Shown: positions 15,142 through 30,712 of the stretch, piece by piece
How positions within the stretch are numbered: the first letter of the stretch is position 1
Layout: each line of letters begins with the position of its first letter
Source: Gammaproteobacteria bacterium
GTDB taxonomy: Bacteria > Pseudomonadota > Gammaproteobacteria > Pseudomonadales > Azotimanducaceae
DNA: 33,243 nucleotides
Assembly (NCBI GenBank): GCA_009837725.1
Contig: VXSY01000231.1
Location: forward strand, 1-33,243
Reading direction: 5' to 3'
Program-made: the position numbers and the translations under genes
Notes under the pieces: generated by a model
The model's input: the letters and a program-made list of their open reading frames with translations, nothing else
Databases searched by the model: none
Told to the model about the DNA's origin: nothing

Positions 15142-15324
15142 CAACACTCCCTCTGGCCACATCCACCACACCGCGCTTCAGCGCATTGACAGGGGGCAGC
15201 AAATGACCGCCTTCCACGACATCACCATGAACGCCATCACCGGCGAGCCGTTGACCTTCTCCAAGTACAAGGGCCAAGCGTGCCTGGTGGTGAATCTCGC
15301 CAGCCAGTGAGGCATGACCAAGCA

Positions 15325-15337
15325 GTACGCAGGTCTG
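15325..15337 (+). promoter_or_regulatory. bacterial SECIS-like hairpin, 5' portion (3' arm displaced to 18079-18083)
   Basis: In the restored gene the sequence GTACGCAGGTCTGCGTAC forms a perfect 7-bp stem with a GGTC loop. The loop begins 24 nt after the T of the TGA codon. The core GCAGGTCTGC matches, as I recall it, the apical part of the E. coli fdhF SECIS bound by SelB. AAG (15320-15322) and CTT (18085-18087) can extend the stem across a small internal loop. The IS has cut the 3' arm after TG, so the hairpin cannot form in the present sequence. Confidence 0.75.
15330..15337. repeat. target-site duplication, left copy (CAGGTCTG)
   Basis: The 8-bp CAGGTCTG directly abuts the left inverted repeat and recurs at 18071-18078 after the right one. 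Eight bp is the duplication length known for the IS1595 family. The duplicated bases are the SECIS apical loop. Confidence 0.95.
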
Positions 15338-15362
15338 GGTGATTATTCACTTGACGCAAGCT
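15338..15362 (+). repeat. left terminal inverted repeat of the IS
   Basis: These 25 bp are an exact reverse complement of 18046-18070; the next inner base pair does not match. The repeat contains TTGACG (15351-15356), and 17 nt further on lies a weak TACGGT (15374-15379) that could drive the first passenger gene. Confidence 0.95.
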
Positions 15363-15431
15363 AGCCTGCCCGCTACGGTGGCCGCTTGGAAAGGTGGCGC
15401 TGGACCGCTGGCGGTGACAGAAGGGTTGCTC

Positions 15432-15863
15432 GTGGACTTTGGTTTGGAGGGATTGCTAGACGCCTTCGAGAAGGAAATCGGGCCGTGGGCGCGGAAATCT
15501 GCGGTGTGGTTCGCCTACGTTGCCCTTCTTCAGTTCGTGGTGTGGCCGCCGCTGTGGTTCGTCCTGCAATGGATTTACAGCGCCCAGCAAGAGGAGGCCG
15601 GTTGGTTCTTTTGGGTTGTTGGCGTCGGCGGCTACGTTGTCCTAGTCGTCCTCGTCAATCTCGTGTGCGTGTCTATTGCCCTGTGGTACACGAACCGGAA
15701 AGTGTCGAAGATCGACAAAGAGGCCGCCGAGAAACTGACACAGGCGACCACAGAGCTTAAACGGCAGATGGACGAAGTCTCGGAGAAGAGGCAGGAACTC
15801 CTGAGCCTCACCGAACGACTGCATCGTCAGGTCGTCCGGGCATCCGGGGAGTCGCCGGAGTGA
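15432..15863 (+). CDS. IS passenger: two-TM protein with C-terminal coiled coil
   Basis: Not recognised. The 143-aa product has a short amphipathic N-terminus and two hydrophobic segments (about residues 27-48, FAYVALLQFVVWPPLWFVL; about 58-83, FFWVVGVGGYVVLVVLVNLV). A charged heptad-like region follows from about 88 to the end (KIDKEAAEKLTQATTELKR). It is probably an inner-membrane protein with a cytoplasmic coiled coil. The start is ambiguous: GTG 15432 has AAGGG 6 nt upstream and was chosen; TTG 15426 and GTG 15414 are alternatives. It lies wholly inside the inverted repeats, convergent with the next membrane-protein gene 5 nt away. The neighbouring membrane gene raises the possibility that the two proteins act together, which is inference. 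Confidence 0.6.
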   Translation: MDFGLEGLLDAFEKEIGPWARKSAVWFAYVALLQFVVWPPLWFVLQWIYSAQQEEAGWFFWVVGVGGYVVLVVLVNLVCVSIALWYTNRKVSKIDKEAAEKLTQATTELKRQMDEVSEKRQELLSLTERLHRQVVRASGESPE

Positions 15864-15868
15864 AGCCC

Positions 15869-16414
15869 TTAGTCGTTGGGGGACCAGCTTGGCCTGAGCC
15901 TTGGGGGCGGTCGATGACGGTACATGGTCGCGTCAAACTCCTCGGCTTGCGCACGGAGCTTTGCGAACTCTTGCATCTCGTGCACCGTGAACGTGGAACA
16001 CCGGAGAGGGGGCTTGCATGGGGGCGCTTCGAGTCTCTCTTCGTACCACGCCATCCGCTCCAAGAGATCGTCCTCTTTCAGCCCCGTGGTGAAGCATCCG
16101 GCCCGTCCGATGCAGAACAGCGCCCGATGCCGGTGGTCGTCCTCCCATGGATAGCTCAGTCTCCGTCGCAGAACCTTGCCGCGCGGTTCAAGCACGCCGA
16201 TGCCGAGAGCGTTGTCCAGGCGGGCCAACCCGTCCACCACGGGGTAGCTCATCACCAGTACCAGCCCCAAGAACAAAGCAAGGAGCGCCGCTCCTATCGC
16301 GTACAAGCCCAGCACAAATCCCACATCAGCCCAAGACAGGGGGTTCCCACCTCGCTTCGCTCTCTCTGCGGCGAGAGCTTCCCGCGCCCCACGCAGCCCA
16401 GCCATCACATTCAT
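15869..16414 (-). CDS. IS passenger: single-TM protein of unknown function
   Basis: Not recognised. The 181-aa product has an Ala/Arg-rich N-terminus and one long hydrophobic segment (about residues 29-56, VGFVLGLYAIGAALLALFLG and onward). A soluble C-terminal region of about 120 residues is rich in Arg and His and ends PPPRLRPSWSPND. The ATG at 16414 has GGAG 7 nt upstream (16422-16425 on the plus strand), which supports real translation. It is carried inside the IS1595-family element and diverges from the 129-aa passenger gene. No catalytic motif is apparent. Confidence 0.6.
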   Translation of the reverse strand: MNVMAGLRGAREALAAERAKRGGNPLSWADVGFVLGLYAIGAALLALFLGLVLVMSYPVVDGLARLDNALGIGVLEPRGKVLRRRLSYPWEDDHRHRALFCIGRAGCFTTGLKEDDLLERMAWYEERLEAPPCKPPLRCSTFTVHEMQEFAKLRAQAEEFDATMYRHRPPPRLRPSWSPND

Positions 16415-16586
16415 GGCCTATCTCCGTTGCGGAGACGGGCGCAGTCCGTACAATGCGCGGCGCGCCCAACTCCGTTGGGTTGCACGCCGAGGGGCGGATG
16501 TTCTTGTTGGCTTTGGTCGGCTTCGGGGACATTCGTCCCCCGGCTCCTACACGGAGCATACACCCACTTCTACGAGGGTTTGTCTC

Positions 16587-16976
16587 ATGACGGACAACGA
16601 GCATCCCAACTGGATCAAGGCGCGAGTGGCCTGCAACGCAGAGACGTGGATAGAGCGGCTCTACGGAGTCATGAAGATCGACGTGCAGCGAGCGACCAAG
16701 GAAACGGGTCGCGAGCACCGCATCGACCTCAGGAACGGCCGGGAGATCACCGTCTCCTCGCTTGTCGAAGATTCAACGGACCAGTGGCAGGCGCGCCTTG
16801 GGCTCACCATTGCCGCGCCGAATACTCTCCGCGCCGCAAGCTCAGTCGGCACCGACACAATCGTCAACATCCATTGGACGGGCCACGAATGCGAGTTGTC
16901 CATCTGCGAGAAGAAGATGGAGCCGTGGGAGATCAGCAGGCGGCTGCTAGAGCCCCTGTTCTTTGGCGACGACTAG
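16587..16976 (+). CDS. IS passenger: 129-aa soluble protein of unknown function
   Basis: Not recognised. The ATG at 16587 follows a GAGGG about 9 nt upstream; the frame is open further upstream to 16413, but that part is compositionally unlike a protein. The product begins MTDNEHPNWIKARVACNAET, has a basic central region (RATKETGREHRIDLRNGREI) and ends EISRRLLEPLFFGDD. It lacks signal peptide and membrane segments. Its stop codon (16974-16976) overlaps the transposase stop on the other strand (16973-16975), so the two genes are tightly packed tail to tail. This suggests long co-residence in the element rather than chance capture. Confidence 0.55.
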   Translation: MTDNEHPNWIKARVACNAETWIERLYGVMKIDVQRATKETGREHRIDLRNGREITVSSLVEDSTDQWQARLGLTIAAPNTLRAASSVGTDTIVNIHWTGHECELSICEKKMEPWEISRRLLEPLFFGDD

Positions 16977-17878
16977 GCGGCTTCCCTTCCGCCGATCAGT
17001 TCCTCGAAGGTGAGGGGATCGGTGCGGACGATGCGGGCCATGGTGTCGCGGAAGATGTGGGGATTGGTGCGGTTGTTGAAGCGCCACTCAAGCTCTTCGA
17101 GGTAGCGGTCCATGTGCTTGGCGCTCATCTTGTGGAAGGCTCCGATGATGCTGCGCTTGAAGAGCGACCACACGCCCTCGATGCTGTTGGTGTGCACGTC
17201 TCCCACCACCCACTCTTCCTCGCTGTGGTTGACGGTCTCGTGCCGCGTGTCCTCGTCCTCGATGCCGAGGTAGGACTTCAGTTCGTCGGTGTAGATCGCC
17301 TCGGCGTCGTCCTTGACGGCGCGGTGGATGAAGTCGTGCAGGGTCTCCCGCTTCACGTTGGGGATGCGCTCGACGCGAAGCTCCCCGCCGCGCTGGATCG
17401 CGCCGGCAACCCAAGTCTTGTTGGACAGGGCCGGCTTGCCGCGCACCTTGCCGCCGATCAGCGTCTCGTCCACTTCCACGACGCCCAGAAGCGTGGGCCG
17501 GCCCTCCATGGGGTCGTTGCCCATCGCCTCGCGGATGCGGTGGCAGAGATACCACGCCGTCTTGTAGCCGACGCCGAGGGTGCGCTTGAGCTGGTTGGCG
17601 CTCATGCCCTTGCGCGACTCCACCATGAGGAAGATGGCGGCGAACCACTTGCGGAGCGGCAGGTGGCTGTCGTGCATGATGGTTCCGGCCGTGACGCTGA
17701 ACTGGTGGCCGCACGGACGGCAGCGCCACCGGCCCCGGCCCTTGATCGGGGTGGCCTCTCCGATCACGCCGCACGCCGGGCACTCGGGGCCGTTGGGCCA
17801 CCGCAGCAACTCAAGGTACTCCCGGCACTGGTCGTCGGTGTTGAAGGTGTCGAACAACTGAACGAGGTTCATGGACAT
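16973..17878 (-). CDS. IS1595-family (ISXO2-like) transposase
   Basis: DDE-type transposase that cuts and joins the ends of the surrounding element. The 301-aa product has an N-terminal zinc ribbon (CPACGVIG, then WRCRPCGHQFSV). A helix-turn-helix-like KGMSANQLKRTLGVGYKTAW region follows, then the catalytic domain: first aspartate in VVEVDETLIGGK, second in IYTDELKSYLG, and third region HTNSIEGVWSLFKRSI with the N/E pattern of this family. The ATG at 17878 has GGAGG (17887-17891) 8 nt upstream and is preferred over the ATG at 17872. No frameshift or stop interrupts it, so the enzyme may be active. It is transcribed inward from the right end, where a promoter-like sequence includes part of the inverted repeat. 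Confidence 0.95.
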   Translation of the reverse strand: MSMNLVQLFDTFNTDDQCREYLELLRWPNGPECPACGVIGEATPIKGRGRWRCRPCGHQFSVTAGTIMHDSHLPLRKWFAAIFLMVESRKGMSANQLKRTLGVGYKTAWYLCHRIREAMGNDPMEGRPTLLGVVEVDETLIGGKVRGKPALSNKTWVAGAIQRGGELRVERIPNVKRETLHDFIHRAVKDDAEAIYTDELKSYLGIEDEDTRHETVNHSEEEWVVGDVHTNSIEGVWSLFKRSIIGAFHKMSAKHMDRYLEELEWRFNNRTNPHIFRDTMARIVRTDPLTFEELIGGREAA

Positions 17879-18065
17879 GGCTCAATCCTCCAAGAAGCTG
17901 CCTAGGAACATCCTCGAACGCCCCGACTCGGAGGCGGTGGGGATGCTGCTTGGCAAGCGAGTCAAGAAAGGACTGGACAAGGAAGCCCAAGCCTTTGAAG
18001 CGCAACCGAATACCAAGCTCATGAGTCAACGATACACAGACTCAAAGCTTGCGTCAAGTGAATAA
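17871..18065 (+). CDS. small ORF at the right end of the IS (doubtful)
   Basis: A 64-aa frame, beginning MDMAQSSKKLPRN and ending DSKLASSE within the right inverted repeat. Its ATG overlaps the transposase start on the opposite strand by 8 nt. A GAGG lies only 3 nt before the ATG. Codon choice looks somewhat coding-like (many AAG, CTG and GAC codons), but it occupies the transposase upstream region and may be a chance frame. Not recognised. Confidence 0.25.
   Translation: MDMAQSSKKLPRNILERPDSEAVGMLLGKRVKKGLDKEAQAFEAQPNTKLMSQRYTDSKLASSE
18029..18057 (-). promoter_or_regulatory. probable transposase promoter
   Basis: On the minus strand TTGACG (18052-18057, inside the inverted repeat) is followed after exactly 17 nt by TATCGT (18029-18034). 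The boxes match consensus at five and four positions. The arrangement, with the -35 box in the terminal repeat, would drive the transposase at 17878. Confidence 0.45.
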
Positions 18066-18070
18066 TCACC
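18046..18070 (-). repeat. right terminal inverted repeat of the IS
   Basis: Exact 25-bp reverse complement of 15338-15362. It is followed immediately by the second copy of the target duplication. Confidence 0.95.
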
Positions 18071-18078
18071 CAGGTCTG
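18071..18078. repeat. target-site duplication, right copy (CAGGTCTG)
   Basis: Second copy of the 8-bp duplication. Deleting 15338-18078 leaves one copy and restores the peroxidase frame and the SECIS-like hairpin. Confidence 0.95.
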
Positions 18079-18414
18079 CGTACCCTTCAGGAGAGCGGCG
18101 CGGTGACGGTGCTTGGCTTCCCCTGCAACCAGTTCGGACGCCAGGAACCCGGCAGCAACGAGGAAATCCTCGAGTTCGCTCGCTCCCGCTACGACTGCAA
18201 TTTCCAGCTCTTCGAGAAGATCGAGGTGAACGGCGACGGCGCTTGCGAGCTCTATCGGTTGCTGAAGGCCGCACAGCCCGGCGCCGATGGCCGCGAGGAC
18301 ATCCCCTGGAACTTCACCAAGTTCCTCGTGGACCCAGAGGGCAACGTGCTGGCGCGCTACGAGCCTGGCATGACCCCCGCCAAGATCGGCGAAGACCTTT
18401 CGTCACGCCGTTGA
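18079..18414 (+). pseudogene. selenocysteine glutathione peroxidase, 3' part
   Basis: Continuation of the gene begun at 15203; joined to codon 45 it gives a 156-residue product, close to bacterial family members (about 158-183 aa). Conserved parts are VTVLGFPCNQFGRQEPGSNE (with the catalytic-tetrad glutamine), LFEKIEVNGDGACELYRLL and DIPWNFTKFLVDPEGNV (with the catalytic tryptophan and asparagine). The frame ends at TGA 18412-18414. In the current arrangement it is open from TTG 18049 in the IS end, so a fragment lacking the active-site residue could be made. The rest of the reading frame has no other damage, consistent with recent interruption. Confidence 0.9.
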
Positions 18415-18441: not shown

Positions 18442-18642
18442 ATGCCGGCACTCGATGGCCTGCGCATTCTCGACATGACCCAATACGAGGCGGGCACCTC
18501 CTGCACCCAGGCCTTGGCGTGGCTCGGCGCCGATGTGGTGAAGGTAGAGGCACCGGGGCGGGGTGATCCCGGCCGGGGCCCGAGCGGCAACGGCGAGTAC
18601 TTCGTGGACAGCCAAATCAGGTACGAGAGATCGAGGAACTGA
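18442..18642 (+). pseudogene. CaiB/BaiF family (class III) CoA-transferase, N-terminal fragment
   Basis: About 55 codons of a class III CoA-transferase, an enzyme that moves CoA between carboxylic acids and is normally about 400 aa. The ATG at 18442 has AAGGGG (18430-18435) 6 nt upstream, and the start [18 protein letters not shown] followed by [21 protein letters not shown] is typical. Family similarity stops near GNGEYF (about 18605), and the frame runs out at a TGA at 18640-18642. The catalytic aspartate and the rest of the gene are absent from the window. The break marks where the chromosome meets the accessory island. It lies 27 nt after the peroxidase gene and was probably in its operon. 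Confidence 0.85.
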
Positions 18643-18650
18643 TTCGGTCC

Positions 18651-19409
18651 ATGATGGACAGGGTGATGGATAATGTCCTATTGAAGGATCCCTTCGACAG
18701 TGAAAAGCACAAGCGCGAAAAACGACTCTACGCGGCGCTGGTGCCCGACGAGGTTTTCATCGGGTCGCATTTTGAGCGTCGCTTCGTCACGTCGTTTGGG
18801 AAAGTGTGGGAAAACCTAATGGCCATTATTGGCAAGAGCGCATTGGGTTTTGCGGAGACAGACTACCACATAAGTGGCGAGATCCCACAGGGCTGCCTAC
18901 AGCGCATCCAAGAGACTTTGGACAGCCTTGAACATACGACGCGCGAGAAAGACACCGAGCGAGTCCGTCCGAGTTGGGATGCGGAGCTCGCTTATGTAAC
19001 AGCCGGAAGTGGTACACTGGTAAACACGACCGTCATCAGCGATGTATTTGTGTCGTCGGCCCGCACCGCCCCGGGCATGTCGTTCGAATTCAAGGCGCCC
19101 CAGCCAAACAGCGATCAAACCAAAGTGACCAAGGAGAAGATTTTCAAGCTTCACTGCATGCGCCCAAAACCGGTCAAGGCGGCGTACTTTGCGTTGCCAT
19201 ACAACCCCTACGGGGAGCGAAAGGACTACAACTGGACTTTCCCGATGCGTTGGTTTGACATGAGGAACGACCCCTGTGTACTGATGGGCGAGGAGCTATG
19301 GGACATGGTCGGGGGACACGGAACCGGCGACATGATTTTCGGTGTGGTGGATCGTCTCGGAAAACACTATCGACAGAGAATACGGGAGGAGTACCTCCGA
19401 ACGGGTTGA
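18651..19409 (+). CDS. TdeIII-like type II restriction endonuclease
   Basis: Resembles the TdeIII family of type II restriction enzymes by recalled family pattern; not verified by search. The 252-aa product has REKRLYAALVPDEVFIGSHF near the start, a PD-(D/E)XK core with D131 (SDVFVSS) and E146-x-K148 (SFEFKAPQPNSDQTKVTKEK), and ALPYNPYGERKDYNW plus LMGEELWDMVGGHGTGD near the end. In-frame codons before the ATG read [12 protein letters not shown], which looks like genuine protein, yet there is no start codon there. The gene may therefore have lost its original start at the island junction. The stop of the CoA-transferase fragment lies 8 nt upstream and could allow coupled translation. No cognate methyltransferase is visible. 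Confidence 0.6.
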   Translation: MMDRVMDNVLLKDPFDSEKHKREKRLYAALVPDEVFIGSHFERRFVTSFGKVWENLMAIIGKSALGFAETDYHISGEIPQGCLQRIQETLDSLEHTTREKDTERVRPSWDAELAYVTAGSGTLVNTTVISDVFVSSARTAPGMSFEFKAPQPNSDQTKVTKEKIFKLHCMRPKPVKAAYFALPYNPYGERKDYNWTFPMRWFDMRNDPCVLMGEELWDMVGGHGTGDMIFGVVDRLGKHYRQRIREEYLRTG

Positions 19410-19597
19410 GGTAGACGCGATCTCTGATTGGCTCTAACAGCATCGTCAGGGGGGAATGGTCGAGATGCAATGTGCCGGAATACCAGACATCGACTAGGCA
19501 CCTACAGGCGATGATCCAGGAACCCCTAGGATGGACGACACGACAATCCGCAGAGCGCCGGTGACTCACAGATGCGGGCGTTGCTTGAGGAAGCCAC

Positions 19598-20443
19598 TCA
19601 CTCGCAACGGAAACCGCCCGCACAATACCACTCGCTTCCAGCAAGAGCGCGGAAGGTGGCGGCTTGCCAGCGGTTCACGCCCAGCCGAGCCCAACTATCT
19701 CGCAGTTCGAGCAACTCACGCTGAACGGCTTCGGTGCCGAGCTTGTTGTAGATTCCAGCCATTTTCGGCGCTAAACCACTGATTTCGGTTGCGGCCTGCA
19801 ACGCGTATAGTCTGCCGAGGTTGAGCACATCGAACTGGTGCTTGATACGTTTATTGAGATTGTCGTCCCACGCGTCGACCGCCACGACGCGGAACACGAC
19901 CGCCGCAACGCCATCTTCTACAACGCGTGCATCAAGCCAACGCTTGCCGGAAACCTCGTCAAAATAGGGATGGACTGGGACTTCCTCAGGGCTGGTCGGC
20001 GCGGTTGCTCCCTTGCTATCGTTGCAGTCGCGGCAGGCGCCAACCAGGTTGTCAGGCGTCACTGCCAACTCGCAGAAGTGGGCCTTCGGCATCACATGGT
20101 CGAGCGTGGAAACCAACCCATGGGCGCAGAACGGGCAGATTCCTCCTTTTGGTAGCCCAATGATCGTGTCGTAAATTCGACGGCCTGGACTTCGCAAGGG
20201 CACCATGCGGTCTTCGTAGACTGCGACCATTTCCTCCTTGGATACGACACCGGAAACGTCGTGCGAAGTTGGCAGGTCGTGTAGTTGGCCAGCCATTGCG
20301 CAGGCCGCATACTCATCAGCCACGTCCGCTATTCGTTGCGCGACATTCGTCAATCGCCTTTTCAGGCCGGGGTTACTTGCGGAACTGACGCAAAGGAGAT
20401 AGGCCGCCTTGGCGCAGAAGTTGGGGCGGTCGACGGAGAGCAC
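19598..20443 (-). CDS. ptuB: HNH endonuclease, Septu PtuB-like
   Basis: Predicted nuclease partner of the adjoining ATPase. The 281-aa product contains an HNH/zinc domain at residues 101-145: GICPFCAHG (C103, C106), STLDHVMPKAHF (H116), TPDNLVGACRDCNDSKG (N132, C137, C140). This is followed by an alpha-helical C-terminal region. The start is GTG at 20443, directly abutting the TAG stop of the upstream ATPase gene (20446-20444), so translation is coupled. An AAA ATPase followed by an HNH protein is the layout of the Septu anti-phage system (PtuA-PtuB), and the lengths fit. The gene symbol is by analogy. Retron-linked and other ATPase-HNH pairs share this layout, but no reverse transcriptase is seen here. 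Confidence 0.72.
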   Translation of the reverse strand: MLSVDRPNFCAKAAYLLCVSSASNPGLKRRLTNVAQRIADVADEYAACAMAGQLHDLPTSHDVSGVVSKEEMVAVYEDRMVPLRSPGRRIYDTIIGLPKGGICPFCAHGLVSTLDHVMPKAHFCELAVTPDNLVGACRDCNDSKGATAPTSPEEVPVHPYFDEVSGKRWLDARVVEDGVAAVVFRVVAVDAWDDNLNKRIKHQFDVLNLGRLYALQAATEISGLAPKMAGIYNKLGTEAVQRELLELRDSWARLGVNRWQAATFRALAGSEWYCAGGFRCE

Positions 20444-22021
20444 CTAGGCGTTGTCTTCGGGTTCCGCTCTTGCGCCTTGAGCAATGAGCGCAGCGATGAG
20501 TGCCCGTCCTTCGGATCCGATCTGACCTCCGAACCGGCCCTTGACCGTCTCAAGATCGCTCTCCGCCTGAACAGCATCCGAGATCATCTTGTGGAACCCG
20601 GACCTGGTGACTTCCAAGCCAAAGACTTGATGTGTAAGGGTACCTACGTGTTCAGCGAAGGTCTCGACTGGCACACGCTCCGCCACGGATTGGTCACCGT
20701 AGCGCCTGATCTGCCAAACACAGGATTGGGGAACCTCCTGAAGCACGACTGGCGAGTGTGTTGCGATGATTGCGACCCCATTGCGGCTGATTAGGAGGTC
20801 CGACAATGCTCGGATGAATGCCGCAAGAAAAGGTGGGTGCAGGTGGCTCTCCGGTTCGTCCATCAGAACAAGAGTGCGTTCGTCCACCGTCTCGACCAGT
20901 CTCGTGATTGTGAGGAGGACGATTTTGTGCCCGGAGCTGAGTCTCCGAAACAACGCACGAGCTCTCGCATCAAAGCCGTGCGCGGACGAGTCTGGCAAGG
21001 CAGCGACACCAGATTCCTCGAAAACTGGGTCCGACTCCAAGGTCCTAAGCGCATTGATCCAGCGACGTTTACGGTGGTCGCGGGAGCACAGCTTAGCGCT
21101 TTGGATGAAGTCCTGCGAAAGTTCGTCGGGCTGGCGGGTAATGACGCTTGGCTCCCCTTCGACCATGTCGGGCACTAGGCCGCGCAGGCCGACATTAGTG
21201 TATTGGACCTTGCTGGGTGCGTTCGTGACTTTCGGAACCACCGGGAAGTCATCGAAGGCCGAAAACGCTACCGATACCACGTTTGCGAACGGACTCGAGT
21301 ACTGGTCGTTGTCATCATCGTCAAACGGGAACGGTCCTGGCAAATCGGCAAACCAGCCGTGATCCTCGCGGCTCGTCTCGCCCAAAGCGAGGGCTCGCGA
21401 CATCGCGTTTAGTAGATGCGACTTCCCGACGCCGTTCCGACCAATGAGTACATGGACGTTGGTTGGCGGTTGCGAGAGTGGCTCGACTTTGAACGACATC
21501 TCTATCGGGTCGCACGCCGGGTCAATCTGTTGGGGTCGTCCGACGTATTGGAAGGCGTAGTCCGTGAGCCGAGCATCGCCACGCAGAATACGCCGGAACT
21601 GCTCGATTAGTGTGCGCTCATTGACCCAACGCATGAGGGATACGTCGAAGGCTTCTTCGTCCTTGGCTTGCTGGAGCAGTTCGTCGTCAGCCACGACATC
21701 TCGAAGACCACGCAGCAGGTCCGCAGCTTCCTCGGTGTCGAGGCTGGCGACACCCTCGTAGTAGTCGGCATCTTGGCCCAGTGAGAAGAACCGACTGCCA
21801 AGCGTATTGAAACGACCAGGCAGGTCCGGATGCCCACTAAGCAATCCGAATTTTGCGATTTTCACACCGCCGAAATCGTGTCGTCTTCCGTCCCGATCGA
21901 AGAACACCAGGCGAAACAGGGTGCGAAATCCGAAGTCGTCCCAGTTATCGGTTTCCAGGAATGCGTCACCAGGGCTTGAACTTCGCGGGATTGCGTTCCG
22001 AGAGACGACGCGAAACTCCAT
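20444..22021 (-). CDS. ptuA: AAA ATPase, Septu PtuA-like
   Basis: ABC-type (AAA_21/RecF-like) ATPase, 525 aa, probably the sensor-regulator of the HNH nuclease next to it. The N-terminal 150 residues (GFRTLFRLVFFDRDG, SRFFSLGQDADYYEG) are a domain without known catalysis. Walker A is GRNGVGKS (194-201), the ABC signature is LSSGHK (361-366), Walker B is TLVLMDEPESHLHPP (D388, E389), and the H-loop is IIATHSP (H422). The ATG at 22021 has AAGGTG 6 nt upstream. In known Septu systems PtuA multimers bind PtuB and release nuclease activity during phage infection. Assignment here rests on architecture and gene order. Confidence 0.75.
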   Translation of the reverse strand: MEFRVVSRNAIPRSSSPGDAFLETDNWDDFGFRTLFRLVFFDRDGRRHDFGGVKIAKFGLLSGHPDLPGRFNTLGSRFFSLGQDADYYEGVASLDTEEAADLLRGLRDVVADDELLQQAKDEEAFDVSLMRWVNERTLIEQFRRILRGDARLTDYAFQYVGRPQQIDPACDPIEMSFKVEPLSQPPTNVHVLIGRNGVGKSHLLNAMSRALALGETSREDHGWFADLPGPFPFDDDDNDQYSSPFANVVSVAFSAFDDFPVVPKVTNAPSKVQYTNVGLRGLVPDMVEGEPSVITRQPDELSQDFIQSAKLCSRDHRKRRWINALRTLESDPVFEESGVAALPDSSAHGFDARARALFRRLSSGHKIVLLTITRLVETVDERTLVLMDEPESHLHPPFLAAFIRALSDLLISRNGVAIIATHSPVVLQEVPQSCVWQIRRYGDQSVAERVPVETFAEHVGTLTHQVFGLEVTRSGFHKMISDAVQAESDLETVKGRFGGQIGSEGRALIAALIAQGARAEPEDNA

Positions 22022-22494
22022 ACATCACCTTCGCCACGACACGCCCGTTTCGGGCATGTGGCTGCGCCTTCTAAAGGGTGGGGCACCTCCCGCCACCATA
22101 GCACTTGGCCCACATTCGCCGATGATCCCGGCGGGGCGGTTTTGCATATGCTTCATTCCGGTCGATTTGGGTCCCACGACGTAGCGATTATACGTATGAC
22201 TGCGGCCGTCGCCAGTTCCGTGTACGCAATCGCGGGATTGGCGCGACACCCATGACGGACGCTTGACCAGACGATCTGTGCAAATGGTTCCGCTCTCGGC
22301 TACAGTGCATCGGCCGTCACGAGCGCTATCGCGTAGGCGCTCCAACTCGCGGCGCGCTACCTGTCCACTCTCCAAGAGGGGCTCGAGACGATGTAAGGCC
22401 GTGCACCGGACTGGCCGGCCACGGGAAATCGTGGACCCTGACTAGACCTCGGTCAAGCGTTGGTGGAGTGCGCAACCGCCCAAAGGCCGTCAAT
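22022..22494. other. intergenic region upstream of the Septu-like pair
   Basis: A 473-nt stretch with no supported gene. On the minus strand a perfect TATAAT occurs at 22187-22192, but the -35 position is poor and the leader to the ATPase would be about 160 nt. A long leader could hide a small RNA, but no clear structure was recognised. Confidence 0.4.
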
Positions 22495-25400
22495 TCATCT
22501 CGAGGAAGGCGTAACGAAGTCGTCCCGCATACGATAGGCCGACGGCGACCCCCCCTCGACTAGGGCATCCAGAATCACCATGACTGCATTCCGAAGCCCA
22601 GGGTCCGTCTTGAGCCTGTGCGGCTCAGAATAGACGAACGGTCGCAACAGTCGCTCAAGGTCGAAGGCCACGTCCGACGTCGACGCCAACCGGACCGCGT
22701 TTCCCTCCTCCAGCACATCCGCCACGACCTCGAAGGCCCGCGGCATCGAAACCTGTCCGATCCTACTCAGGAAACTCGTGTACGCCCGCAACACGGGCAC
22801 GGTTGACGGTAGATCGCGAACCAGTTGCTCCACGCGATGCACGTGGCCGTCGAGCCTATGCCAGTCTTCCGCCTCCTCCTTCCAGTTAGAGCCAAGGAAG
22901 ATCATGTTCAGCAGGCCATGGCCGAACGAATCCTTGTCTGTTAAGCCCCTCGCCCACTCAGATTGTACGATTCCGTCCGCAAGCTGCTGCCATAGGCCCC
23001 AGAAACAACCGTCGGCGTTGCTGTCCGCGGCGAGAATGAGTCCGGTCAAAAACCACTCGCCGTCCCGACGATGATCGACCGCTGCATCCAGAACAGGCGC
23101 GCCGATCCGCAGCGCATCCTCCAACGGAAGGCGGAACAGGAACCTCCCAAGCGACGTGCCCGCGGCGTGCTCCAGCTCGTAGTCGCGCGGCACAGACTCG
23201 CCCGCGTGCCCGTCTGTACGCCATGTATTGGCGAGCCAATCGGCGACACGGGAATAGAAGCTCCACGACTCGTCCCATGCTGGTCGCTGTTCGAACAGCC
23301 TCAGAGCAGCCCTGATTGCTGGACCCGCTAACGGCTCGCCGAAGTCGACGGACGCGAGCTCACGATCCACGTCCAAGCTGCTCTTCTCAAACGCCGCCCG
23401 GACGGGTTGGACCACCGACTCGAATCGCCTCCAATCGTCGACCCGTACCTGGCGCTGCCGCACGTCTTCCCAGGATTCAACCTCCAGCCTCGACCGGTAC
23501 GCCGCCGCGGCTACGCACTCCAACGCCAGCGCCTTGTGGTTGTCGCCAACAAAAGCACCAAGTCCACCGAAAGCGTATTCCGTTACCTCGTGAACCGGGT
23601 GCGTCAACGCGAGCGCGAGAAGGTCAGTCATGTCGATGCCGGCCACTTGCCTGCCATGAGCCGTCAGCAATGGCACTACACTTGCGCACACGCAATCCGC
23701 ACCGGCTGTCCGCTGCTCCCTGTCCAAGTACCCAATGCCTGTTGATTTGCGCCGGACTTCAAAGTCCACGCGACTCACGCACCACTCGAAGTCACTCTGA
23801 CTGAGTTCGGCAAGGTGGTCCCTGATACACACCGCGGCCGCGAGCCCCTGCCCGTCCCGATAGAACTCCTCTGCCTCTTCGAGCTCCCGTTCTATGGCCT
23901 GCGCTTCGCCGAGCAGCGACTCCTTCCAGTCAAGGGGCTCGACCGAACCATCCCGATCCCACGCTTTCCGGGCTCGGTTTTGGAGTCCGAGGTATCGGCC
24001 GAGCGGCGCGGCTGACCGTTCAGTTTGCTCGACCATTTCTTGGACATCAGCTTCCAACTTAGCCGGGACCAGAACGACGCGGTGGCTAGTGCCCTCCCTA
24101 CCATCTCCCTCCACGGTGGCCGAGATGTGCTTTGGCTCGAAATCCCTTGCGTCCATCCGATGGAGCGCCAACCGCCAAACCCGAGTGTCCTCGCCCGAGC
24201 CAGCCGACAGTTTGTCGCGGTGCTGATCGATGATCGACCAGATCTCGTCGCGATGTTCGGTGAACTGCAACCTGACCGCGAGCATCTCGAGATCCTCCTT
24301 GCGGTGTGGGAGTTCGTCAGCGGTCGTTCGCTCCTGTTCGTACAACCGGCTTTCCGGGTTGAGCCCAGAGAAAAGCCGCGCAGCGCCGGATTCCAGCGCG
24401 AGCCGTTGGCGGTCTAGCTGTACTACCTCTCGGCTTGACAGCAGCGCCAAGGCCGCGCGTCCGGCCTTCTCCGGGTGCGCGATGCAGACGCTGGCCACCA
24501 CACTGGTCGTCATCACGTTGTTGCTGTCTCGGAGCAAGGAGAGCAGCCAGGGCTCGACATCTGCCCCTTCCGTCTTTGCCAATGCCAGGAGCCAAGACTC
24601 CAGCGCCATCAGCATCGACTGGACAAGGTCGGGACCCACCTGGTTCCCACGGTACTGGCTGTAGAGGAGCCGGTCCGCCCACTGGCTGACGGTCCCGTGA
24701 CCGGGGATCTCAAGTCTTGTTTTCGCCGCAGGTTCCAAGACCCTCCCTGGCCCACGTTCCTTGGCGTACCAGTCGGCCGAATGGTTGAGAAGGCTCACGG
24801 TAAATGCCACGGCCTTCGCTGGATGTTCCTCCAGCAGCACGCGGAAGGGCCCTTGCAGCGCGCTCGGCGGGAAGAAAGAGCCAACTGGTGCCCTACGTAT
24901 CCCGAAACCGTAGTCCACCTCTCCGAGCGATGAACCCATCGCGCGCCTCTCGCGTTCGCGGTTCTCCGCAGTGAGCCGGAACCGTGCGTCCAACAAGCCA
25001 ATCACCTCGTCCGGGAACTCCAGGCACGCAAGTGCGCCTTCAGGATTGGTGCAAACCAGTTCCATCAGGTCGTACGCCACTCTGTCAGCGCGGTCGCTGG
25101 TCTTCGCGCGTTCGATTAGCTCCCGGAACCGTGGGACCGCGCAGGGGACCTTCACCACGATCTTCAGCACGCGCTTCCGCGCGTCCGCTGACCCGTAATC
25201 GTCGAACTCCCCGAGGAGCCTATCTGCGATCAGGCCAGCTTCCGCGGCGCCGTCGGGTTTGGGGTCTCGCCCGCGCACCTGTCGGGCCCAGTCTTCGACC
25301 AGCCCGATCACCAGTTCTGGACGCTCCCGCAACAATCCGTCGATGGCGTCAAGCACCAAGCGAAGCGTCGGTGCCCAACCGGACCCCGTCGGCACGAGCA

Positions 25401-27522
25401 GCAGTGACGGCAGCCCAGGTACGTTCAGCCACTTCGGCGAGACTTTGCAGGCCACACGCAGTATGTGGACGAGCTGGATTAGCAGGTCTAGATCCCCACT
25501 CAGGATCCGCCCGCGACAACCATCCACAAATACCTCGGCGGACTCCGACAGCAATGCCGCCACGAAACAGTCATCCCGGAAGTGCCGTGGCACTTCGCGA
25601 TCGCCGACGGCCCGCAGAACCAAGTCGCCCGCATCATCCGGGTCCACGTCGAACCGTTCCGCCAGCCATTGCCGGAACCCACGACGTACAGCGGGAAAGC
25701 CGCCTATCGCCTGGGCGACCACTGCAACGGATCCTTCCGCACGGACGTACCGGTCGTCGATCGCCTGGAGGACACCCCAGTCCTCGAGGACGTCATGCGT
25801 CACCGCGTAGACCGCCGCCGAGTCGCCCGACGCATGCAGCAGCGAGTCCCTCTTTAGTGCCTCCATTGCTTCGGCATCGTCGTTGCCGGGGACAAACGAC
25901 CGTAGTGCTACCGCGCGGCGCCACGCGATGTCCAGAAACACCCGCCCACGCCGCTCCGGCATCCCGGCCCCTGGATATCCCTCCGCTCGGATCAGGTCCT
26001 GCCAGACCTTCCTTCGGAACTCGCGGAGGCTTGCGGGAAACGACGACTCCGCCCATCCCAGCCGGCTCGCCAAGTCCAACAGGTAGGGCGTTCGTAGAAA
26101 GCCCCGAAGTCGGGCATCTGCCAATGGCCGTACGAGCGACGGAACGCCCTCACGCACTCGGTTCAACTCAGCGTCGGACAGTAGCGGCATCTCGAAAATC
26201 GCCGGTGCTACATCGCTTGGCATCAGTGCGTTTCGCACCGTCTCCAGCGAGTAGTCGCGCACGGTGAGCACAATCCGGGTCGATCGGTCCCTCTGGGCAA
26301 GCTGGAGCAACTGCGTGAATCCATCACGGACTGACCGTTCGAGCAGTCTCTCCAAGCCATCGACAAGAATGACCTTCGCGTCGTGCGTCGCCAGAAGGGC
26401 CATCATCCGCTGCAGATTCAGTGTCGTCTGTGCGTTCGCAAGCACCTGATCGACGTGTGCGGTCGCGAACTCGACGGCCTGAAACGCCAATACGGGGTAG
26501 GTGCCCTCGTAGTCGGTGAGCAGCGCACGCGCTACCGCGGACTTGCCGGATCCAGCAGCCCCCGACACGATGACGATCTCGTGGTCCACGAGCTGCGACG
26601 CCAGCTCCTGCACAAGCGCGCCCCTGTCGATTGCGTAGCCGTCACCGATCGTCGAGCGGATGCCGTCCCGAACGGTCATTCCGTGTTCCACTAGCGCACC
26701 CAGTCCCGCCCGATCGGCGCTGGACACCGGTACGTAACGGGCCTGCAGGTCTGAGGGTAGGGAATCCTGACCGACGTAGCTCCTTGCCGTAGTCTTTCCG
26801 TCGCCCGCGAGCCTCAACAGAGCCGCCCAACCATCGCGCGCCACATCCAGCGAACCTCCGCCGTCGCCTGCGCAGTGTGCAAGAAGCCCCAACACCGATG
26901 CTTCCGCTTGGGCTGTCGGGCTGCCGAAGTCGAAGCTAAGGATGTTGACTGTCCGCAGGAAACGCCAATAAACATCGTCGGCCGGTGTACTGCCCGCCTC
27001 CGCCACGATCTGGCGGACGTCCCGATTCTGGCTCTGTGCCTTAACCGAGAGGTAGCCCTCGAGAGACGCCCTGCGTCCGAAGTCCTCCGCGTCGGCGGAG
27101 GCCCGGGCGCAATGAAGCAGCGCCCCAAAGTCTCGGAGCAGCGCGGACGTTCCGTGGAGGGTGACCACTGCCAGCTGGTCTGCCGCTTGGTCGAACCGAT
27201 CAGCTGCCAGGTAGTCCTTCCACATGCCGAAGATCGTCTTGCGGCAATCCTCGTTCGCCGCCGAGACCGAGAAGCTGCGCTTTACCTGTAACGCCAGTTT
27301 GCGCCGCACTCCATTGCTGCCTTCGCCAACTAGCAGGAGGTCGTCGGTCTGCCAGCCGAGGTGGCCGGCCTGCAAGTGGACCTCAACTACCGAGGTGTCA
27401 ATGAGTACCGGCGGCGTCGCCCGAACGAGAAGCAACCCGAGTGCGAACGCGGCGACATGCTGCTCGAACTGCTCGCCCGCACCCCCGGTAGCGGTGGGGC
27501 TCATCGATCTGTCGTTGCTCAT
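22495..27522 (-). CDS. STAND/NACHT-type NTPase with N-terminal nuclease-like domain (Avs-like defence protein)
   Basis: Giant 1675-aa protein. Residues about 10-200 look like a PD-(D/E)XK-type nuclease: GWQTDDLLLV (D60/D61) and KLALQVKRSF (Q79-x-K81), the Q-x-K variant found in Mrr and Cap4 relatives. Next comes a P-loop NTPase with IVIVSGAAGSGKS (Walker A 321-328) and KVILVDGLERL (Walker B, D388), followed by IVLTVRDYS. The remaining thousand residues appear alpha-helical and are likely a ligand-sensing scaffold. This nuclease-STAND-sensor order is that of Avs (AVAST) proteins, which bind phage proteins and then activate a nuclease. The ATG at 27522 was chosen for AAGG 7 nt upstream and because the upstream extension to 27735 overlaps the next gene. 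The exact subfamily was not recognised. Confidence 0.7.
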   Translation of the reverse strand: MSNDRSMSPTATGGAGEQFEQHVAAFALGLLLVRATPPVLIDTSVVEVHLQAGHLGWQTDDLLLVGEGSNGVRRKLALQVKRSFSVSAANEDCRKTIFGMWKDYLAADRFDQAADQLAVVTLHGTSALLRDFGALLHCARASADAEDFGRRASLEGYLSVKAQSQNRDVRQIVAEAGSTPADDVYWRFLRTVNILSFDFGSPTAQAEASVLGLLAHCAGDGGGSLDVARDGWAALLRLAGDGKTTARSYVGQDSLPSDLQARYVPVSSADRAGLGALVEHGMTVRDGIRSTIGDGYAIDRGALVQELASQLVDHEIVIVSGAAGSGKSAVARALLTDYEGTYPVLAFQAVEFATAHVDQVLANAQTTLNLQRMMALLATHDAKVILVDGLERLLERSVRDGFTQLLQLAQRDRSTRIVLTVRDYSLETVRNALMPSDVAPAIFEMPLLSDAELNRVREGVPSLVRPLADARLRGFLRTPYLLDLASRLGWAESSFPASLREFRRKVWQDLIRAEGYPGAGMPERRGRVFLDIAWRRAVALRSFVPGNDDAEAMEALKRDSLLHASGDSAAVYAVTHDVLEDWGVLQAIDDRYVRAEGSVAVVAQAIGGFPAVRRGFRQWLAERFDVDPDDAGDLVLRAVGDREVPRHFRDDCFVAALLSESAEVFVDGCRGRILSGDLDLLIQLVHILRVACKVSPKWLNVPGLPSLLLVPTGSGWAPTLRLVLDAIDGLLRERPELVIGLVEDWARQVRGRDPKPDGAAEAGLIADRLLGEFDDYGSADARKRVLKIVVKVPCAVPRFRELIERAKTSDRADRVAYDLMELVCTNPEGALACLEFPDEVIGLLDARFRLTAENRERERRAMGSSLGEVDYGFGIRRAPVGSFFPPSALQGPFRVLLEEHPAKAVAFTVSLLNHSADWYAKERGPGRVLEPAAKTRLEIPGHGTVSQWADRLLYSQYRGNQVGPDLVQSMLMALESWLLALAKTEGADVEPWLLSLLRDSNNVMTTSVVASVCIAHPEKAGRAALALLSSREVVQLDRQRLALESGAARLFSGLNPESRLYEQERTTADELPHRKEDLEMLAVRLQFTEHRDEIWSIIDQHRDKLSAGSGEDTRVWRLALHRMDARDFEPKHISATVEGDGREGTSHRVVLVPAKLEADVQEMVEQTERSAAPLGRYLGLQNRARKAWDRDGSVEPLDWKESLLGEAQAIERELEEAEEFYRDGQGLAAAVCIRDHLAELSQSDFEWCVSRVDFEVRRKSTGIGYLDREQRTAGADCVCASVVPLLTAHGRQVAGIDMTDLLALALTHPVHEVTEYAFGGLGAFVGDNHKALALECVAAAAYRSRLEVESWEDVRQRQVRVDDWRRFESVVQPVRAAFEKSSLDVDRELASVDFGEPLAGPAIRAALRLFEQRPAWDESWSFYSRVADWLANTWRTDGHAGESVPRDYELEHAAGTSLGRFLFRLPLEDALRIGAPVLDAAVDHRRDGEWFLTGLILAADSNADGCFWGLWQQLADGIVQSEWARGLTDKDSFGHGLLNMIFLGSNWKEEAEDWHRLDGHVHRVEQLVRDLPSTVPVLRAYTSFLSRIGQVSMPRAFEVVADVLEEGNAVRLASTSDVAFDLERLLRPFVYSEPHRLKTDPGLRNAVMVILDALVEGGSPSAYRMRDDFVTPSSR

Positions 27523-27600
27523 CCCTGCGCCTTCCTGCCTCCTATGCCGGTCGGACGTAGGCCACATAGTCGGAGTTTGGGGTTTACTTCTCAAGGTGGA

Positions 27601-27615
27601 CGCGACCTTGTCGCG
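27601..27615. repeat. perfect inverted repeat upstream of the STAND gene
   Basis: CGCGAC-CTT-GTCGCG is a 6-bp perfect inverted repeat with a 3-nt spacer, in the 133-nt gap between the HEPN-like gene and the STAND gene. It could be an operator or a short transcript hairpin between the two genes. Confidence 0.3.
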
Positions 27616-27655
27616 AACCAGCGACTGCATACTATGCCGAGGCTCATCCAGGTCG

Positions 27656-28195
27656 TCAGGGAGTATCCGGAAGCAGGTGCTGCTCAAGGTTGCTGACGAC
27701 AGCCGAACAGGATTCTGCGAAGAGGCGGATCTCATTCCCCAGGAGCCGGATCGTCTCGCCGGCCTTGCCGTCCCCAGCTATGTCCACATAGGACTCGTCT
27801 GCTACACCAAGGTTGTGGCCGAGGACATGTCGCTTCTGAATATTGAGCTCCAGGCACTCGACGTCGGCTGGGGCGAGCACTGAGAATGGCTCGATGCCCA
27901 GGTGCGCATACAATGCCGTTGCCCGCTCGATGTTCTGGAATGCAGTGCCGATGGCCTGCTTTGATCCAAGTCGGCTGAACTGATCTGGCAGTCGAGTGCG
28001 CACCAAATGGCGATAGATCGCCTTGAGTGTCGCCTCGAGGGCCGTCAGCACATCCTCGTGCGCATTACCGATCAGTCGATAGCCCAGTTCCGCGACCTTC
28101 CGCTCCACGGTTTCGCTGTAGAAGGGTGCCCGCGTGCGGAACAAAGCGGGGGCAGCGGACGCGGGATTGGCACCGGTCCGTTCCGCCTCGCCCAT
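27656..28195 (-). CDS. small HEPN-like helical protein
   Basis: Not firmly recognised. The 179-aa product is predominantly alpha-helical. It carries NIQKRHVLGHNLG at residues 118-130, where R122 to H127 fits the R-x4-6-H motif of HEPN ribonucleases, common in toxins and abortive-infection proteins. It precedes the STAND gene by 133 nt on the same strand and may be part of the same system. The ATG at 28195 lacks a Shine-Dalgarno. The frame is open for another 22 codons (ending GDLTFVEFM before the ATG) up to a TGA at 28264-28262 with no ATG, GTG or TTG. The N-terminus may therefore be longer with an unusual start, or truncated. Confidence 0.55.
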   Translation of the reverse strand: MGEAERTGANPASAAPALFRTRAPFYSETVERKVAELGYRLIGNAHEDVLTALEATLKAIYRHLVRTRLPDQFSRLGSKQAIGTAFQNIERATALYAHLGIEPFSVLAPADVECLELNIQKRHVLGHNLGVADESYVDIAGDGKAGETIRLLGNEIRLFAESCSAVVSNLEQHLLPDTP

Positions 28196-28445
28196 GAACT
28201 CGACGAACGTCAGATCGCCGGAAAATGGCAGGAAGGCGGGCTGTGGCCCGCAAGCACGTCGTCAACAAGCGCCTGTCTCTGCACGTCGCAACGATGGCGC
28301 GACACTCTAGCCCAAGGCAAACCCTCCGCCATTTCGGACCTCCGGACTGGACGCCGGTCCCGAGAATGCGTGTGCCGCGATGGAAGTGGCGCGGAAATGG
28401 CCTGGGGCCGCTGCCGGTAACGACAAGCCGCGAGCGTGCGCAACT

Positions 28446-29180
28446 CTAGAGCCCCAAGCACTCCAGGATGGCTTGGCCACCGGGCGAGTGTGGCCCGAGC
28501 GATGCCCCTCGTGCCTGTCCACGGCTGTACTTGATGACGTTCTGTCGGTCTTCGAGCCCCCATTCCTTAACCGCACGTGCGACAACAACCTTCTTGCCAT
28601 CCTTCGACGCCCTTTGCGCGAATGCCCGGACTGCGTTGGCCGACGCGATCTTCGTCGTCCCCCCGAAGGACTTCGAGTGATAGGGGATGAGCTCGAGACA
28701 GGCGACTGTTTCGGCAAGGCACTTGAGTGCCTGCGCGTAGTTGCTGTCGAATCTCCTGCAGGCGACGATACGGGCTGTCTCTCGTAGCTTTGACTCCCAC
28801 CAATCGAACCCGCCGGTCCAGGCCCACTTGGGATCGAGGAACATGTGCGAACTCACCTTCTGGCGGATGGTTTCGATGATGGACTGCCGAAAGCCACCGT
28901 CCATCTCCTCCGCAACATAGTCTGAGGCGCTGAAGCCGGGGTTCTTCAACAGCACGAACACCTTGGCGTTCTTGATGTCACCGTGATACGGCTGCGGCAG
29001 GAGGGACAGGTGAAACGCATCTTCCCGGAGCCTCCCTTGCTTGAACTTCTCGACGTAGTCGTCGTAGTTGTTCACGCCATGTTGAACGCGACCGGAGCGC
29101 AAATCGTCGGCCGGGTGTCGGTACGGCGGCCGCTGCAAGTCGCAATATCGCCAGAATTCCACAAGTTCCTCTGCCGTCAT
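28446..29180 (-). CDS. conserved-looking protein of unknown function (244 aa)
   Basis: No function assigned. The protein has LSLLPQPYHGDIKNAKVF followed by VLLKNPGFSASDY (about residues 58-88), then FLDPKWAWTGGFDWWESKL, LELIPYHSKSF and RGASLGPHSPGG near the C-terminus. The pairing of an N-P-G-x-S strand end with a later P-Y-H-S motif is faintly reminiscent of the uracil-DNA-glycosylase superfamily, but not enough to name it. I recall similar uncharacterised proteins in bacteria. The start ATG at 29180 overlaps the stop of a possible 67-aa upstream frame as ATGA. It lies on the same strand as the HEPN-like and STAND genes, 250 nt upstream of the former. It could be a component of that system or an independent cargo gene. 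Confidence 0.6.
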   Translation of the reverse strand: MTAEELVEFWRYCDLQRPPYRHPADDLRSGRVQHGVNNYDDYVEKFKQGRLREDAFHLSLLPQPYHGDIKNAKVFVLLKNPGFSASDYVAEEMDGGFRQSIIETIRQKVSSHMFLDPKWAWTGGFDWWESKLRETARIVACRRFDSNYAQALKCLAETVACLELIPYHSKSFGGTTKIASANAVRAFAQRASKDGKKVVVARAVKEWGLEDRQNVIKYSRGQARGASLGPHSPGGQAILECLGL

Positions 29181-29380
29181 GGCGGGATCGAAGCCTTGAT
29201 TTCATCTACCGGCTGGCAATTGTCATCCAGATCGGGGTGGTACGACAACGGCATAGATCGCGTCGAGATCTCCGCTAGCGGCAGGGTAATGCAACTCAGC
29301 GAGGCCAGCTGGCGAGCACGAGTGTGGTTCACGCCAATTTGGCCATCCTCCGAGAGAGGTATGCAACAATTTTGGGGCAT
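29177..29380 (-). CDS. possible small upstream ORF coupled to the 244-aa gene
   Basis: A 67-aa frame ending IKASIPP, whose TGA overlaps the ATG of the 244-aa gene (ATGA). The last two-thirds use GC-rich codons like real genes here, but the protein (LSYHPDLDDNCQPVDE) is not recognised and no ribosome-binding site was noted. The tight overlap is the main reason to list it. Confidence 0.25.
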   Translation of the reverse strand: MPQNCCIPLSEDGQIGVNHTRARQLASLSCITLPLAEISTRSMPLSYHPDLDDNCQPVDEIKASIPP

Positions 29381-29923
29381 AAGGACTTCAACGACCGCGG
29401 CGGCCCGAGAAACGTCGTCGGTACGGTCGGTGCGTACCCGCCCATGCGCAGAATTGGGAAACGAGCGTCGAGGTAGGCCCTGGACGGGTTAGGAGGGTGG
29501 TTCGATGCTGGCCGCCTCTTCTGCGGCGGGTCCGTGTGCACGACTTGCAGAGTCCGCCGGGGATAGGCGGTCGTGGCCACTCGTTGCATGTCACGACGGC
29601 AGGGTCCACGTGCGAACGGCGCGCGGCACAACGGATACCCGGCGCATTTGCGTTGGCGAGCTTCCTCAGGAAACTGATCGTACCGTCCTTCCGCCGTTTG
29701 TTCGTCGCCAAGGACGCGACGCGGGGCGGGTTGGTGCAGTCCAGGCTGTGGCGTGGCCGCTTCCAGGGTACCGGACGTGCGTCAGGAGTGCCTTGCAGCC
29801 ATTGGAGTCGCTTCGAATCCGAGTGGGAGTCAAGGTTGGACATCCCCCGTCAGTCACTGGTCCGCAGCCATTGTGTAAATCGCCGGAGACGGACGCTCTA
29901 CCACTTCGGAGCCCGAGCTCGGC
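29381..29923. other. region without a supported gene
   Basis: About 540 nt between the 244-aa gene cluster and the Abi gene. Several overlapping open frames on both strands have Arg/Pro/Ser-rich, non-protein-like translations, and none was accepted. It may be decayed sequence or contain promoters; no RNA structure was recognised. Confidence 0.4.
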
Positions 29924-30712
29924 TCATTGACCGAACCCGTCCGCTTCAATGGCCTTGATGAAGCGCAATAGCGCGGACACGGAGTCGAATATGTAGCGGG
30001 CTTCGGCGTCGTTCACGATGTCGTTGTCGTGGGCGAGCGATTTGTTGTTCCGGATGTCGTTGAAACTCTCGAAGATGCTGATGCTGCTCTTCATGGCGCG
30101 CATGCTGATTTCGCGGATGTGTCGCTCGTTCGATAGGATGCCGACGTACTTGCCCATCCGGCTGTGGAGCGGTTCGCGCTGATCGCAAGTGCCGCCATGG
30201 GCTTTGATCAGATGGGCGGTTTTCTTCATGCAGTAGGTATGTAGGCGGTCGAGCGCGGCAGCTGGTTTGGCAGCTTGGATGTCGCGTTCGATCGAGGCGA
30301 CGAGTTCCTCCAGTGTTTCGTCGGGGGCGAACCTGTCTATCGCATCGGTACGGGGTATGGCGCTGCCGCCCTCAATGCGAGAAATGAGGTCGAAAAGCGG
30401 GGTCTTGACGTCGGTTGGCGTTGTCGAGGCGCGCCAGGGAGCGAGTGGTCGAGGGCCAACGGCTGCCCTGCGCTCCCAGAGCTTGCGCAAGACCTTGGTG
30501 ACGAGGTGGTCGTCCGATATGGCAAGGAACGTGCGCAGGCGTTTTGCCTTCGAGCTTCCGTTAGCGTGGTAACTGTCGGCATCGATGTCGATCTGGAACT
30601 CTTCGTCAAAGAACACCGACATGGTGTGATCAGTGAAGTCGAGGACGTAGCCTTGATGCATGTCAAAGGCGTCGTCGATCGTGCGGATGTCTCTGCGAGT
30701 GAACTCGGTCAA
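29924..30712 (-). CDS. abortive infection family protein (Abi_C type)
   Basis: Predicted toxin-like phage-defence protein. The 262-aa product shows the pattern I associate with Abi_C (PF14355) proteins: an N-terminal domain with FTRRDIRTIDDAFDMHQGYV and SSKAKRLRTFL, and a helical C-terminal domain with LDRLHTYCMKK and PLHSRMGKYVGIL. Its ISIFESFNDIRNNKSLAHDN stretch has R221 to H228 matching the R-x6-H motif of HEPN RNases. The start is TTG at 30712, with AAGGTG (30720-30725) 7 nt upstream; no ATG is available nearby. No antitoxin partner was identified. It stands alone between two gaps and may act as a single-gene system. Confidence 0.75.
   Translation of the reverse strand: MTEFTRRDIRTIDDAFDMHQGYVLDFTDHTMSVFFDEEFQIDIDADSYHANGSSKAKRLRTFLAISDDHLVTKVLRKLWERRAAVGPRPLAPWRASTTPTDVKTPLFDLISRIEGGSAIPRTDAIDRFAPDETLEELVASIERDIQAAKPAAALDRLHTYCMKKTAHLIKAHGGTCDQREPLHSRMGKYVGILSNERHIREISMRAMKSSISIFESFNDIRNNKSLAHDNDIVNDAEARYIFDSVSALLRFIKAIEADGFGQ

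Follow-up and report, generated by a model that had tools for sequence, protein, structure and literature searches.

Glutathione peroxidases (GPx) with selenocysteine (Sec) at the catalytic position are already known in bacteria: a table row for the Sargasso Sea metagenome lists five (PMC1088965), one for the GOS data gives 40, in a table whose column heads are not visible (PMC2398784), and a 2026 review has a GPX-like UxxT entry (PMC13188914). The gene described here is a further case, as a disrupted allele. It lies on contig VXSY01000231.1 (33,243 nucleotides, our C248; this whole stretch is called the window below) of a gammaproteobacterial genome of 4.66 Mb in 303 contigs, 95.8% complete. 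Compared by description, it resembles the marine-metagenome genes in belonging to COG0386/PF00255, in its catalytic TGA with a threonine three residues on, and in having a bacterial selenocysteine insertion sequence (SECIS) downstream; it differs in that the allele is interrupted by an insertion sequence (IS) and in that its relatives are assigned through their genomes to a single family, for which the selB status is given. The vertebrate GPX4-type enzymes are likewise Sec GPx, and GPX4 chains from the PDB were among the matches of the 3′ piece of our gene, but their SECIS is in the 3′ untranslated region whereas ours is inside the coding sequence, and the tree discussed below holds bacterial rows only. 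Our reading, which we hold with high confidence, is that a Sec GPx gene was inactivated by the recent insertion of an IS1595-family element inside its SECIS.

An earlier note, made from the sequence of the window alone, had described a GPx gene with an in-frame TGA, split in two by an IS; the reading frame, the TGA, the IS boundaries and the coordinates were all confirmed on the sequence (Table 1). Between the two pieces lie the element and one 8-bp copy of its target, and joining the flanks in silico gives the otherwise clean enzyme that the note had proposed, 156 codons with the TGA counted. Both pieces exceed the curated cut-off of the Pfam GSHPx profile (PF00255, 27 bits), the 5′ piece when scanned with the TGA read as a residue and the 3′ piece when scanned as 18049-18411, ten of whose codons belong to the target copy and the end of the IS. 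Within the 3′ piece lie the active-site Gln, Trp and Asn, and their predicted conservation is borne out: alignment columns 64, 123 and 124 are, together with column 37 (the catalytic Cys or Sec), invariant among 70 Sec and 98 Cys homologues, and we take these columns to be the GPx active-site tetrad. Here and below, identical sequences are counted once, leaving 67 Sec and 97 Cys nucleotide segments and 70 Sec and 98 Cys proteins.

The catalytic TGA is shared widely. We searched 146 genomes for PF00255, and since the matches listed are the best-scoring ones, every tally of TGA-bearing GPx is a minimum; genomes with weak matches only (e.g. G006, G021, G075 and G076) stand outside these tallies. 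At least 59 genomes besides the window's own have a GPx match with one internal TGA, and in 59 of 59 such regions that TGA is the catalytic codon (57 in the main parse; L169 and L170, read separately, stand outside the hairpin and tree counts). The parse covered 181 of the 207 loci (L020–L226). The remainder are L044, L106, L169, L170, L201, L202, L203 and L208 (of which L201, L202, L203 and L208 are in no class), L209 (from G083, beginning inside the gene) and the IS-search loci L210–L226. Within the window's genus, 14 of 16 genomes carry a Sec GPx (13 of the 15 others), and G009 has selB with no GPx match. At least 59 of the 91 genomes of the family, the window's own included, carry one, making Sec GPx the commoner form across a whole bacterial family; the earlier remark that bacterial Sec peroxidases are uncommon does not hold among these kin.

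These counts also bear on the possibility that a Cys GPx gene acquired the TGA by simple nonsense mutation and was later hit by the IS as well, which would make the locus an ordinary pseudogene. The gene is indeed broken, and Cys is found in 59 of the 79 GPx parsed from the best 80 similarity matches listed from the genome_contigs collection. However, the in-frame TGA aligns with the redox Cys of homologues and is common to related genomes: close homologues have TGA where the earlier note would have seen TGC as a sign of simple mutation, namely in each of the 13 relatives from the genus whose GPx match is full, as well as in the 59 listed TGA-bearing relatives. A SECIS-type hairpin is conserved alongside it, and the genome encodes the machinery to decode it (both below). 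Since relatives share the TGA at the catalytic codon, we reject the nonsense explanation, to which we give almost no weight.

The two closest relatives, G005 and G010, provide the empty site. Both are 92–93% identical to the window on both IS flanks and run straight through the insertion point, the element being absent, so that the uninterrupted gene that was to be looked for in close relatives does exist; their GPx proteins are unbroken save for the TGA. The window's 5′ piece has no amino-acid differences from the intact homologue of G005 (L134), and its 3′ piece has 5 amino-acid and 16 synonymous codon differences, for a total over both pieces of 18 synonymous and 5 nonsynonymous. Given so few codon differences, and a 3′ piece that is clean to its stop codon, the insertion looks recent.

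What the IS has interrupted appears to be the recoding signal. A perfect 7-bp stem with a GGTC loop had been proposed just after the TGA; it is present at the empty site (GUACGCA-GGUC-UGCGUAC, after a 14-nt spacer) but not in the window as it stands, where the IS splits the stem. The 8-bp target duplication, CAGGTCTG, is the heart of this hairpin. Pairing of the stem is kept in 96.6% of pair cells across the 67 distinct Sec segments, compared with 43% for the same codons in the 97 Cys segments, which serve as a control for conservation at the protein level. Six Sec sequences share a compensatory G-C to A-U change at one pair, and RNAalifold recovered five of the seven stem pairs from the same alignment. 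For relative L134, the optimal fold is this stem when the segment is trimmed of its first 9 or 12 nt (numbered from the UGA).

The closest described element is the SECIS of E. coli fdhF, which the earlier note had cited. The resemblance is exact over the core: the 10-mer GCAGGTCTGC also occurs in fdhF of E. coli K-12, where it too belongs to a hairpin closely downstream of the UGA. It starts 21 nt from the T of the TGA in our gene rather than 18 nt as in fdhF, and our stem is a perfect 7 bp; the fdhF SECIS has a bulged U that is important for SelB. The window as it stands has no occurrence of GCAGGTCTGC on either strand. A SECIS model gave 61–63 bits for the two intact relatives (both among its training rows), 17–34 bits for four Cys homologues from within the Sec clade, and 20 bits at the left IS junction. 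Judged by the gap between the intact relatives and the Cys homologues, the likeness to fdhF is more than chance. A hairpin just 3′ of the TGA with a G in its small apical loop is found at the empty site and in the intact relatives, and does not form in the window.

The selenocysteine machinery, whose absence (of selB or selC in particular) the earlier note had held to be decisive against a selenoprotein, is complete in the window's genome: selB scores 380 bits (cut-off 242), the adjoining selA on contig C70 467 bits and selD 245 bits, and tRNA-Sec (selC) is found at 67 bits with an ARAGORN call in addition. Among the 146 genomes, selB exceeds its cut-off in 54 of the 60 that carry a Sec GPx (the window's own included) versus 28 of the 86 others, an association with a Fisher p of about 1e-12, uncorrected for kinship. 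Comparison thus establishes both a conserved signal and the machinery, from which we infer Sec insertion itself: in the intact relatives, UGA codon 36 would be read as Sec by SelB and tRNA-Sec under the direction of the 7-bp hairpin, and the mature enzyme would reduce peroxides through its selenolate. As a separate observation, in G006, a genome of the same genus (92% complete), no selB passes the cut-off and the sole GPx match is weak, as expected if Sec decoding has been lost there.

Several observations weigh against this reading. The covariation is thin: only one of the seven pairs is altered on both sides, and with one compensatory pair and the others near-invariant, covariation alone is a weak argument. 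In a shuffle test of five measures, many or all shuffles reached the observed value on two of them (245 of 500 equalled the measure of changes on both sides, and 500 of 500 the number of pair types). Sliding the register by +2 or −2 columns gives similar covariation scores, with only 52–72% of cells pairing; at −2, the count of doubly changed cells is 9, versus 6 in the true register. Since the stem sits within coding sequence, some of its conservation may lie at the protein level. Left to fold freely, the complete joined segment favors a different structure. The model found no second such SECIS among the 150 of 1494 candidates scored in the genome; being GPx-specific, it would miss other SECIS elements. 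Formate dehydrogenase, considered as a further selenoprotein, was set aside: none of its five matches in the genome has an internal TGA or stop. Finally, six Sec-GPx genomes have no selB over the cut-off; four of them are less than 90% complete, and the other two, G033 and G055, are at 91–93%.

The state of the assembly raises a different concern, namely that the insertion is polymorphic, or an artefact of binning or assembly, and that the population keeps a working Sec GPx. With 303 contigs, the insertion could be a population variant, and the repeats at the IS ends and the two target copies are still perfect, as would be seen soon after insertion. On the other hand, a single contig spans both junctions, both flanks are collinear with the same two relatives at 92–93% identity, and no second GPx was found in the genome. 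We consider a surviving working copy unlikely, though it is the alternative that we take most seriously.

If the insertion is fixed as assembled, its effect on the gene would be twofold. The IS would split the hairpin, and translation would end at the UGA or, on read-through, 18 codons past the TGA in frame, where the ninth codon of the element is a TAG. Since the 3′ half lacks the catalytic residue, an active GPx is not expected from it, and we infer that the disrupted gene yields no active product. A reading frame is open from a TTG at 18049, in the IS end, through the 3′ piece to 18414, so it is conceivable that the 3′ piece is still made and acts as a truncated GPx fragment; however, such a fragment would have neither the catalytic Sec nor most of the first 45 residues, and we regard this as highly improbable. 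With both its SECIS and its frame broken by the IS, the allele in the window's genome is almost certainly non-functional.

The inserted element has the transposase, the terminal inverted repeats and the 8-bp target duplication of the IS1595 family, in which a duplication of that length is usual. It resembles the ISXO2-like members in its transposase domains and target duplication, and differs from them in having three extra candidate open reading frames (ORFs), none of which has a family match over the cut-off. No other full copy was found in its own genome among the 7 of 73 first-look candidates scored. The nearest related element is in G007 (L211 and L219, G007:C122), 78% identical across part of its length. 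We considered whether the IS seeks out hairpins or SECIS elements. The IS1595-type element of G007 is flanked by two 8-bp copies of GATCCTCC, and since this target is not a palindrome, a hairpin preference finds no support in these two cases. A full-text search of the literature, judged by titles only and hence no proof of absence, returned no paper titled on IS disruption of bacterial selenoprotein genes.

The Sec enzymes also differ from most Cys homologues in a second position. The column after EF, which we take to be the resolving Cys site, holds C in 92 of the 98 Cys rows and in none of the 70 Sec rows, which have A, V or I instead; the window's own 3′ piece has A. The Sec rows therefore lack the resolving Cys, in an EF-C motif, of the thioredoxin-dependent 2-Cys GPx. 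Vertebrate GPX4 likewise lacks this Cys and is reduced by an external thiol. In the absence of a resolving Cys, the Sec enzymes here cannot use the corresponding disulfide, and are probably of the one-Sec type, regenerated by glutathione or another external thiol. The role of the resolving Cys in thioredoxin-type GPx is treated in PMC8614756.

A tree was built from all 70 Sec rows, all 6 Cys rows without the resolving Cys and 24 of the 92 other Cys rows, excluding the Sec, resolving-Cys and SECIS-coded columns; the method was a quick one, the tree is unrooted and 40 of its 97 inner branches are weak. The 70 Sec rows and the 6 Cys rows without the resolving Cys form one group (97% SH-aLRT). The Cys genes nested within it are L054 (the same GPx as L149), L064, L148, L191, L192 and L196; by parsimony they need about 5 separate changes, at least 2 of them forced by well-supported branches. 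SECIS-like remnants are found in the Cys genes L148 (26 bits) and L149 (34 bits), which are close together in the tree and may share one Sec-to-Cys event. Rows from Acidimicrobiales also nest inside the Sec group, which suggests transfer of the Sec GPx between phyla, and one Deltaproteobacteria assembly contributes rows as well.

We somewhat favor a history in which Sec was gained and the resolving Cys lost on the same branch, giving rise to a single clade, followed by several replacements of Sec by Cys (the changes counted above), in which the resolving Cys was not regained and SECIS remnants are decaying in two genes. The direction of these changes is read from two things: the ordinary Cys enzymes as outgroup, and the SECIS remnants. 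In the 2006 survey of bacterial Sec/Cys conversions, the table gives GPx one Cys-to-Sec and no Sec-to-Cys conversion, its columns being identified from their totals, and remnant SECIS-like structures are noted in some selenoprotein-derived Cys homologues (PMC1794560). The Sec-to-Cys reversions seen here may be new for this family, a claim at which no literature search was aimed. If the proposed history is right, these genes are a natural series of reversions from one-Sec to one-Cys GPx, and an IS landing in the SECIS is a different route by which Sec use can end. The Cys genes that lack the resolving Cys are ready material for comparing Sec and Cys chemistry on one enzyme scaffold. The locus itself adds a confirmed selenoprotein gene of a sort that ordinary annotation would be expected to miss, and an example of selenoprotein loss in which an insertion struck the recoding signal and left the Sec machinery in place.

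Continued use by other candidate selenoprotein genes is the probable reason why that machinery was retained. Four further candidates with an in-frame TGA among the matches listed (Table 1), read in this one genome only, comprise a SelW-like protein (CxxU), a peroxiredoxin-like protein whose peroxidatic residue is U, and two redox proteins of the UxxC type; the match on C178 is weak.

Table 1. Features of the disrupted GPx locus, its element and neighbors (window positions), and further candidate selenoprotein genes (contig positions)
Feature	Position	Strand	Remarks
5′ piece of Sec GPx gene	15203..15337	+	holds start codon and catalytic TGA; Pfam GSHPx 41.7 bits, profile 1-41
In-frame TGA, catalytic (peroxidatic) codon, residue 36	15308..15310	+	same codon TGA in 59/59 relatives listed with TGA-bearing GPx
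Left part of SECIS hairpin (stem 5′ arm, loop, start of 3′ arm)	15325..15337	+	IS-interrupted
Left copy of 8-bp target duplication	15330..15337	+	CAGGTCTG
IS1595-family (ISXO2-like) element	15338..18070	.	2733 bp; 25-bp perfect terminal inverted repeats
Candidate passenger ORF of IS, 174 aa	15339..15863	+	ORF only; no Pfam match; weak NCBIfam YidC match far under cut-off
Candidate passenger ORF of IS, 181 aa	15869..16414	-	ORF only; no Pfam/NCBIfam match
Candidate passenger ORF of IS, 187 aa	16413..16976	+	ORF only; no Pfam/NCBIfam match
IS1595-family transposase, 301 aa	16973..17878	-	DDE_Tnp_IS1595 130.6 bits; Zn_ribbon_IS1595 63.8 bits; NF033547 200.5 bits
Right copy of 8-bp target duplication	18071..18078	+	CAGGTCTG
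3′ piece of GPx gene	18079..18414	+	clean up to stop codon; Pfam GSHPx 73.7 bits, profile 51-108
Type II restriction enzyme match	18651-19409		
PDC-M01B HNH	19598-20443		
PDC-M01A/PtuA-like ATPase	20444-22021		
Avs4-like protein	22495-27735		
Weakly caspase-like protein	30995-32815		
Candidate selenoprotein gene L236	C66:8033-8236		TGA-bearing
Candidate selenoprotein gene L239	C271:8552-8929		TGA-bearing
Candidate selenoprotein gene L242	C249:17618-18010		TGA-bearing
Candidate selenoprotein gene L249	C178:18067-18282		TGA-bearing; weak match

Downstream of the GPx gene, the alignment to the relatives ends at 18607, within a CoA-transferase gene (CaiB/formyl-CoA-transferase type, 55 residues scanned), and past that point the window holds a defence-type island (18608-32815), the recognizable members of which are listed in Table 1.

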